Source of the DNA: a virus
Reading direction: 5' to 3' (one strand)
Length of the DNA stretch: 22,209 nucleotides
Virus record (IMG/VR): IMGVR_UViG_3300027793_000305
Coordinates: 1-22,209 of that record
Position numbers and translations under genes: made by a program. The notes beneath the pieces are model-generated. The model was not told the origin of the DNA. It made no database searches and saw nothing but the letters and a program-made list of their open reading frames with translations. Shown piece after piece: positions 16,287-17,379 of the stretch; positions within the stretch are counted from its first letter, which is position 1, and every line of letters starts with the position of its first letter.

Positions 16287-16487
16287 ATGACCTACATCCA
16301 AGACGGCTACACCGTCGAAATCAAAGCCACCGTCTTCGGCTTCATCGTCTACGTGACATCGCCAGACGACGACGTGCGCCGCGCCGAAGGGAACTGGGTC
16401 TACATGGAGGGTGCGGTGGCGGCGGCGTCTCGCACCATCGAGGCGATGAAGAAAGAGGCGAGGGATGCGCACACTCAGTCTTTTTAG
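16287..16487 (+). CDS. Small protein of unknown function
   Basis: The product is 66 aa from ATG 16287, placed 6 nt after AAGGAGG in repeat copy 2; earlier in-frame ATG 16230 lies upstream of the RBS and inside the repeat, so it is rejected as a start. Predicted fold: three strands (TYIQDGYTVEIKATVFGFIV, GNWVYMEGA) and a helix (AVAAASRTIEAMKKEARD). Not recognised. Normal G+C, so it probably was joined to the 259-aa gene before the AT-rich gene arrived. It overlaps the methyltransferase start by 23 nt. Confidence 0.7.
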   Translation: MTYIQDGYTVEIKATVFGFIVYVTSPDDDVRRAEGNWVYMEGAVAAASRTIEAMKKEARDAHTQSF

Positions 16488-17379
16488 TGGCATCGGTGGC
16501 TTTGACCTTGGCTTCGAGCGTGCTGGCATGACCGTCGTCGGAGTCTGTGAAATTGACAAGCACGCCCAGAAGATTCTCCAACGGCACTTCCCCGATGCGA
16601 CGTTGCACGACGACGTCAGAAAGGTGCACTATGCACGCGAATCAGTTGACCTTGTTTGCGGAGGATTTCCCTGCCAAGACCTCAGCGTCGCAGGAAAGCG
16701 ACGTGGACTTGACGGAGAACGCAGCGGACTTTGGTTCGAGTTTGCGCGCATCATTGATGAGGTTCAACCCCAGTGGGTCGTCATTGAAAACGTGCCAGGT
16801 CTATTCTCTAGCGATGGAGGGCGAGACTTTGCCGTCATCATTCAATGGCTGGCAAAGCGCGGGTATGGCGTGGGATGGAGAGTGCTTGACAGTCAGGGCT
16901 TTGGACTTGCCCAGCGACGCAAGCGTGTGTTTATTGTCGCAAGTTTTGGAAACCGAAGTGGATGCACGCTACTTCTTGAGTCCGAAAGCGTGCGCTGGGA
17001 TTCTACGACGCGCCGAGGCGAGAGGCAAGGTCATACCGGAGCCGTTGCGAAGTGCCTTATGGGTAGTAACCATCGACGAGACTGGGAAACCGAAACCATG
17101 ATTCCAGTGGTGTGGGAGTCAACACATGGCGACGACCCTGCACGTATTGCTCCTAATCAAGATGTATCCCCTACGCTGCAAGCACGAATGGGAACAGGTG
17201 GCAATCAGATTCCACTCATCGGCGTGCGACGGCTGACTCCAACGGAGTGCGAGCGACTGCAGGGATTTCCCGATGGTTGGACTAGTGGCCAAAGCGACAC
17301 GCACCGCTACAAGCAACTGGGCAATGCGGTGTCGGTGCCAGTGGCGGAGTGGATTGGCCGAAGAATCATGCAGTCTTGA
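16465..17379 (+). CDS. C5-cytosine DNA methyltransferase
   Basis: The 304-aa enzyme carries all main C5-MTase motifs in order: I (LFSGIGGFDLGFERAG, residues 6-21), IV (GGFPCQ, catalytic C70), VI (ENVPG, E109), VIII (QRRKRVFIV, 150-158), a target-recognition region (about 160-250), IX (RRLTPTECERLQGFP) and X (GNAVSVPVAEWIG, 287-298). It would transfer a methyl group from S-adenosylmethionine to cytosine, most likely to shield phage DNA from restriction. No cognate endonuclease is seen. It is complete but short for the family, mainly in the recognition region. Start ATG 16465 overlaps the previous gene by 23 nt; GAGGCGAGGG precedes it. A second frame (16631-17101) lies wholly inside it. Confidence 0.93.
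   Translation: MRTLSLFSGIGGFDLGFERAGMTVVGVCEIDKHAQKILQRHFPDATLHDDVRKVHYARESVDLVCGGFPCQDLSVAGKRRGLDGERSGLWFEFARIIDEVQPQWVVIENVPGLFSSDGGRDFAVIIQWLAKRGYGVGWRVLDSQGFGLAQRRKRVFIVASFGNRSGCTLLLESESVRWDSTTRRGERQGHTGAVAKCLMGSNHRRDWETETMIPVVWESTHGDDPARIAPNQDVSPTLQARMGTGGNQIPLIGVRRLTPTECERLQGFPDGWTSGQSDTHRYKQLGNAVSVPVAEWIGRRIMQS
16631..17101 (+). CDS. Nested +1-frame gene within the cytosine methyltransferase
   Basis: A 156-codon frame lies entirely inside the methyltransferase gene. ATG 16631 follows AGAAAGGTG (16618-16626), a reasonable RBS; in-frame ATGs at 16547 and 16595 lack one. The protein starts MHANQLTLFAEDFPAKTSAS, then has SSLKTCQVYSLAMEG and a SGM-like QSAGMAWDGE, and ends with RYFLSPKACAGILRRAEARG followed by KVIPEPLRSAL. 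From memory, LTLFAEDFPAKTS openings and YFLSPKACAGILRRAE.RGK.LP endings recur in annotated phage proteins of unknown function. Here EDFPAKTS is the +1 reading of methyltransferase motif IV (GGFPCQDLS). So it may be a true overprinted gene, or part of that resemblance may follow from the conserved methyltransferase DNA. Confidence 0.55.
   Translation: MHANQLTLFAEDFPAKTSASQESDVDLTENAADFGSSLRASLMRFNPSGSSLKTCQVYSLAMEGETLPSSFNGWQSAGMAWDGECLTVRALDLPSDASVCLLSQVLETEVDARYFLSPKACAGILRRAEARGKVIPEPLRSALWVVTIDETGKPKP

Follow-up and report, generated by a model that had tools for sequence, protein, structure and literature searches.

A gene nested in the +1 frame of a phage C5-cytosine methyltransferase gene and its probable role as a recognition subunit

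Does a long open reading frame lying inside a viral C5-cytosine methyltransferase gene encode a protein of its own, and what might that protein do for the enzyme? The question is raised by a stretch of 22,209 nucleotides (IMG/VR record IMGVR_UViG_3300027793_000305, positions 1 to 22,209), here called the window, in which a methyltransferase gene, alpha, holds a second open frame, beta, in the +1 frame of alpha at an offset of 166 nt. The relevant features, in window coordinates, are the following.

16465..17379, + strand: alpha, C5-cytosine methyltransferase of 304 aa with motifs I-X in frame 0 (ORF, Pfam, alignment)
16618..16626, + strand: AGAAAGGTG, Shine-Dalgarno-like site (AAGG at 16621-16624, 6 nt before the beta ATG; sequence, with ATG plus Shine-Dalgarno enriched in relatives)
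16631..17101, + strand: beta, nested +1-frame gene of 156 aa, ATG at 16631, stop ending at 17101 (ORF, codon-shuffle and four-fold-site tests)
16660..16686, + strand: alpha motif IV (GGFPCQDLS); the beta reading of the same DNA is EDFPAKTS (both translations, alignment)
16912..16938, + strand: alpha motif VIII (QRRKRVFIV); the same DNA enters the C-terminal domain of beta (both translations)
16931..16981, + strand: beta element LLSQVLETEVDARYFLS, resembling the recognition-domain element that follows motif VIII in some single-chain C5-methyltransferases (sequence and profile comparison)
16931..17083, + strand: C-terminal domain of beta, residues 101-151, helices confidently predicted (AlphaFold2, pLDDT 83-98)
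16975..17214, + strand: alpha recognition region, residues about 171-250, predicted to be disordered in alpha alone (AlphaFold2)
17227..17283, + strand: alpha motif IX (RRLTPTECERLQGFPDGWT), in frame 0 here, whereas other members of the family have it in the beta frame (translation, alignment)
17308..17367, + strand: alpha motif X (YKQLGNAVSVPVAEWIGRRI) (translation, alignment)
17393..17923, + strand: N6-adenine methyltransferase (Pfam Dam, PF05869, E=9e-15), 13 bp downstream of alpha (Pfam; context only)

Alpha matches the Pfam family DNA_methylase (PF00145) at E=9.5e-72 over residues 1-302 and, with motifs I, IV (PCQ), VI (ENV), VIII, IX and X in order, meets the requirements for membership. 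The original prediction, made from the letters of the DNA, had placed a complete C5-cytosine methyltransferase at 16465-17379 and within it an open frame of 156 codons at 16631-17101 with its own ATG and a short sequence noted upstream of it; coordinates and frame are correct, the peptides quoted from both frames match the translations, and annotated phage proteins of the kind it mentioned do exist (PHROG_16143, E=6e-19, and Streptococcus phage MM1 orf14). Searches of Pfam and NCBIfam returned no family for beta, which has no catalytic motif and, in the window, no motif IX. Downstream of the C5-methyltransferase and the Dam-type gene lies an HNH endonuclease (PF01844, 17956-18324). A 42-bp direct repeat, 95% identical between its copies (15681-15722 and 16240-16281) and ending in AAGGAGGA, is found directly in front of two small genes and is apparently a duplicated leader with a ribosome-binding site.

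The +1 frame as a protein-coding gene

The +1 frame is a real gene, and its protein is under selection. C5-methyltransferase loci were taken from viral contigs with beta, with the long-beta profile or with alpha only, and synonymous codons were shuffled within each gene, a procedure that leaves the alpha protein and the codon usage of the gene intact. The real +1 frame scored above all 60 synonymous shuffles against beta profiles in 222 of 225 non-redundant phage-type alphas; among alphas collected by the window alpha alone, without any selection on beta, all 63 passed. On average the longest stop-free stretch in the +1 frame spanned 208 codons (98 expected), and the +2 frame displayed no excess openness (59 versus 61 expected). 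For the window gene, beta scored 193.5 bits against a profile built without the window and its nearest relatives, as compared with 86.9 +/- 11.5 and a maximum of 134.0 in 2000 shuffles. Conservation of frame 0 lets shuffled genes still reach about 87 bits; the same scoring of shuffled genes, which retained about 50-90 bits, served to control for alternative-frame similarity in tblastn.

A second line of evidence comes from synonymous sites. In the +1 frame, the second position of every beta codon coincides with the wobble position of an alpha codon, and a conserved beta therefore constrains wobble choice in alpha. In 77 methyltransferases with motif IX in alpha, wobble entropy at conserved four-fold codons was strongly reduced inside the overlap (mean z -12.7) and unchanged outside (0.0; p=8e-6). 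Between the window and eight relatives, 32-49% of four-fold sites differ inside the overlap versus 48-85% outside. A short distance before motif IV, 66 of 196 genes have an ATG preceded by a Shine-Dalgarno match, 3.6-fold more than the 18.4 expected. With low synonymous change limited to the overlap and a conserved protein in the alternative frame, the criteria for an overprinted (dual-coding) gene are met.

Could the open frame be a chance by-product of a G+C-rich, conserved methyltransferase gene? An open frame is by itself only slightly out of the ordinary, since 4% of the synonymous shuffles made from the window gene are free of stops over the region (P=0.04), and shuffles retain the considerable score given above. 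However, none of the 2000 shuffles approached the real score, the four-fold constraint is limited to the overlap, and the beta test is passed neither by E. coli dcm nor by 26 of the 34 bacterial control ORFs; chance is thus ruled out by the codon shuffles and four-fold-site tests, and next to no weight is left on it. Synonymous constraint by itself does not name its cause, and the wobble positions might be held by an RNA structure or a DNA signal without any second protein. This is highly improbable in view of a +1 frame that stays open for more than 200 codons on average where 98 are expected, of protein-like motifs shared by bacterial phages and an archaeal virus, and of the taking over of motif IX by the beta frame.

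Distribution of beta and the movement of motif IX

Beta was found in phages of Firmicutes, Proteobacteria and Actinobacteria, in an archaeal virus, on plasmids and in bacterial genomes, and lies in the +1 frame of a methyltransferase in every locus where it was seen; one extra match to the long-beta profile lay in frame 0. No free-standing beta gene was detected in the 258 loci examined, every beta match overlapping an alpha, which fits an obligate subunit. A candidate for a free-standing beta, in Pectobacterium phage MA12, has no annotated gene at the match; it was rejected, since an unannotated methyltransferase also covers the match. The original prediction had suggested a widespread overprinted gene and proposed to look for reduced synonymous change. 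Both the broad occurrence and the strong reduction confined to the overlap bear this out; the absence of homologues outside methyltransferase DNA, which it had named as an observation that would refute the idea, was encountered, but is compatible with an obligate subunit. The prediction was made in ignorance of M.EcoHK31I and of the annotation in phage MM1.

A first search of genome contigs with beta gave no match. When bacterial genomes were searched with alpha, 80 loci were obtained, 68 of which pass the beta threshold, and most of the remainder score above their own shuffles but below that threshold. E. coli dcm is without beta. The 34 bacterial control ORFs, found by family in six genomes reached via earlier loci and in 60 genomes of one class, include 8 with beta, several of them from genomes picked for holding an alpha relative. 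Mapped on a tree of the motif I-VIII region, the presence of beta changes only 6 times, compared with 26 for shuffled labels. The few changes and the failing controls indicate that beta is confined to one phage-type group and does not belong to C5-methyltransferases at large. Hundreds of phage enzymes share the nested layout, and most genome annotations overlook the nested gene.

Members of this group differ in the location of motif IX: alpha has it in 90 cases and the beta frame in 89, never the two together, and 27 lack a recognisable motif IX; its location has changed at least 4 times on the tree. In the first type, which includes the window, motif IX resides in alpha and beta ends after the conserved domain SLSDILE..V..KYFLSAKACxGILRRAxKRGKxLP. 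In the second, a longer beta ends in LNPxWVEWLMGFPxGWT, which is read from its sequence as a motif IX, and alpha keeps motif X without IX. In the third (L103, L106, L122, L125, L132, L145), betas of the short type continue into a classical RLTPxECERLQGFPDGWT. Motifs IX and X are placed in yet another ORF, downstream, in a few systems. In mycobacteriophage Lucky2013 (L014, 2326-3526), alpha stops before motif IX, and the next annotated gene (114) contains motifs IX and X; three ORFs would then form one enzyme. For members that carry motif IX in beta, analogy with single-chain enzymes suggests that the enzyme would hardly function if beta were missing.

A two-chain enzyme as the preferred reading

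The explanation preferred here, with a probability of roughly 0.8 and without any expression or interaction data, is that the locus encodes a two-chain C5-cytosine DNA methyltransferase in which beta is the recognition partner of alpha. Alpha would be the catalytic chain, contributing AdoMet binding, the motif IV cysteine loop and motifs VI, VIII, IX and X. Translation of beta would start on the same mRNA at an internal ATG of its own, in the +1 frame. Roughly the first 100 residues of beta, for which disorder is predicted in the isolated chain, may wrap around alpha, and the helical domain at the C-terminus would provide the portion of the target-recognition domain that is absent from alpha, whereby the chains are proposed to fold together into an active enzyme. 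Nesting would keep both chains co-inherited and co-expressed. The translation of beta in this phage, its binding to alpha and its roles in recognition and catalysis are all inferred, and the need of the window enzyme for beta is inferred from the conservation of beta. The division of motif IX between the two frames without duplication, the nested genes annotated in Streptococcus phages MM1 and P0092, and the precedent of M.EcoHK31I, with motif IX in its small chain, speak for the two-chain reading. Against it counts the possibility that the window alpha might work alone because all ten motifs are present.

Support for a recognition role comes from an element of beta, LSDILEeeVdeKYFLS (also LSQVLE..VDARYFLS), which resembles an in-frame element located about 31-37 residues after motif VIII in some single-chain methyltransferases devoid of beta (L362, LRDILDENVDKKYFLT; L359, IKDIMEKEEVSVKYYLS; L360, VKDILESTVDKKYTLS; Dcm, LAQLLDPMVEAKYILT). 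At that position, a profile of the beta element matches L362, L359 and L360 (E=1.4e-4 to 0.034, against 4.6 or worse for shuffled proteins), and Dcm and four control methyltransferases carry the element in frame after motif VIII. No copy was found in frame 0 of beta-bearing alphas. The element is short, and a recognisable copy is absent from most control methyltransferases. In L378 (minus-strand ORF 1449-2202), a bacterial methyltransferase, motifs up to about VI are joined in frame to the C-terminal element of beta, owing either to a sequencing indel or to a natural frame fusion.

AlphaFold2 models of the separate chains point in a similar direction. The catalytic domain of alpha alone is mostly predicted at pLDDT >90, while residues about 171-250 are mostly at 38-51 (ten-residue blocks); in beta, residues 101-151 reach 83-98 per ten-residue block, as opposed to about 45-57 for the first 100. 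An unfolded recognition region in alpha together with a folded C-terminus in beta fits a recognition domain completed in trans. The low confidence in alpha could also stem from the variability of this region and from an alignment of little depth. When solved structures were searched by sequence with beta profiles, chance matches alone were obtained, and a Foldseek search of the PDB with the beta model returned nothing, no solved C5-methyltransferase recognition domain being matched.

Two alternatives accept the coding capacity of the frame. Beta might be real but a separate protein, such as a regulator, an inhibitor or a counter-defence factor, that is merely overprinted on the methyltransferase. 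The complete set of ten motifs in the window alpha is compatible with this, and accessory proteins are often encoded by overprinted viral genes (PMC8227390). It is nevertheless considered unlikely, for all matches in the 258 loci overlap a methyltransferase, beta has motif IX only where alpha is without it, and a methyltransferase-like recognition element is present in beta. These last two points, that motif IX is never in both chains and that the recognition-domain element is in beta and not in alpha, also lend indirect support to the first half of the earlier suggestion that beta is a partner or regulator of the enzyme; no support was obtained for a regulator. Alternatively, the beta frame might be expressed mainly by ribosomal frameshifting from alpha, yielding an alternative C-terminus and no separate protein, as the single ORF of L378 might suggest. 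Little credence is given to this, since start codons with Shine-Dalgarno sequences are enriched just upstream of beta, the conserved LTLFAEDFPAKTS begins directly after, and nested starts are annotated in Streptococcus phages MM1 and P0092.

If the two-chain reading is extended, a large clade of phage and prophage C5-methyltransferases, P1 Dmt included, would be obligate two-chain enzymes with a recognition subunit overprinted in the catalytic gene and motif IX passing between the frames, and many phage methyltransferases annotated as complete would therefore be without a described subunit. This generalization is only narrowly favored. The gene overlap itself is long, lies on one strand and is broadly conserved in double-stranded DNA phages, whose annotation usually discards genes of this kind, and the movement of motif IX from frame to frame offers a test case for overlapping genes that divide the functions of one protein. 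If beta is required, phage C5-methyltransferases cloned as alpha alone may look inactive, and their methylation specificities could not be assigned.

Comparison with known methyltransferases

The small chain of M.EcoHK31I (YGGCCR) is reported by Lee, Kam and Shaw (1995) to be encoded inside the large gene in a different frame. As a second polypeptide encoded at the same locus, the nested +1 ORF of the window, which is under dual-frame constraint, fulfils this criterion insofar as the reported nesting holds. M.EcoHK31I is a two-polypeptide C5-methyltransferase whose large chain carries motifs I-VIII and X and whose small chain carries IX, and in the split enzyme M.AquI the small chain carries motifs IX and X (PMC3404938, PMC3439449). 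The M.EcoHK31I division, in which alpha is without motif IX and the beta frame has it, is seen in 89 relatives. In contrast, the window alpha keeps motif IX (RRLTPTECERLQGFPD) and its beta lacks it; the locus is inferred to work like M.EcoHK31I, yet it fails the criterion of a small chain bearing motif IX. M.AquI is similar in building one C5-methyltransferase from two chains but differs in that motifs IX and X of the window are both in alpha, so that the AquI-type criterion is not met either. Literature searches retrieved M.EcoHK31I and M.AquI and no paper on the wider overlap, and no description of the breadth of beta, the dual-frame constraint or the frame-hopping of motif IX was found in the papers searched.

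Closer counterparts are annotated in phages. In Streptococcus phage MM1, orf13 and orf14 are labeled "C5 methyltransferase alpha / beta subunit" and share the nesting, the +1 frame and homologous alpha and beta proteins with the window; the MM1 beta has a shorter C-terminus without the GILRRAEKRGK helix, and the subunit labels are annotation only. Genes gp44 and gp45 of Streptococcus phage P0092 are likewise annotated as nested methyltransferases. Beta qualifies for the MM1-type nested family PHROG_16143 (139 aa) by profile homology (E=6e-19) and by its +1 position inside a C5-methyltransferase gene. The label of this family, "DNA methyltransferase", suggests a catalytic enzyme, whereas beta has no catalytic motif.

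Phage P1 Dmt combines Dam with a putative C5-methyltransferase, the two methyltransferases being fused in one protein as in locus L016, whereas the Dam-type gene of the window is separate. Within its C5-methyltransferase part lies a +1 ORF of 163 codons (L387, 2722-3210) with the C-terminal domain of beta, including LLSQVLEQTSIPQRYFLSSKACAGILRR, and with a diverged N-terminal half; the record annotates one bifunctional enzyme and no nested gene. In the P1-like plasmid pHNSD133T1 (L011, 1401-4442), an intein seems to split the C5-methyltransferase part of Dmt at its catalytic PCQ motif (TPCFTAGHM ... VVHNCQAF). The nested frame of P1 dmt makes the question testable in a laboratory phage.
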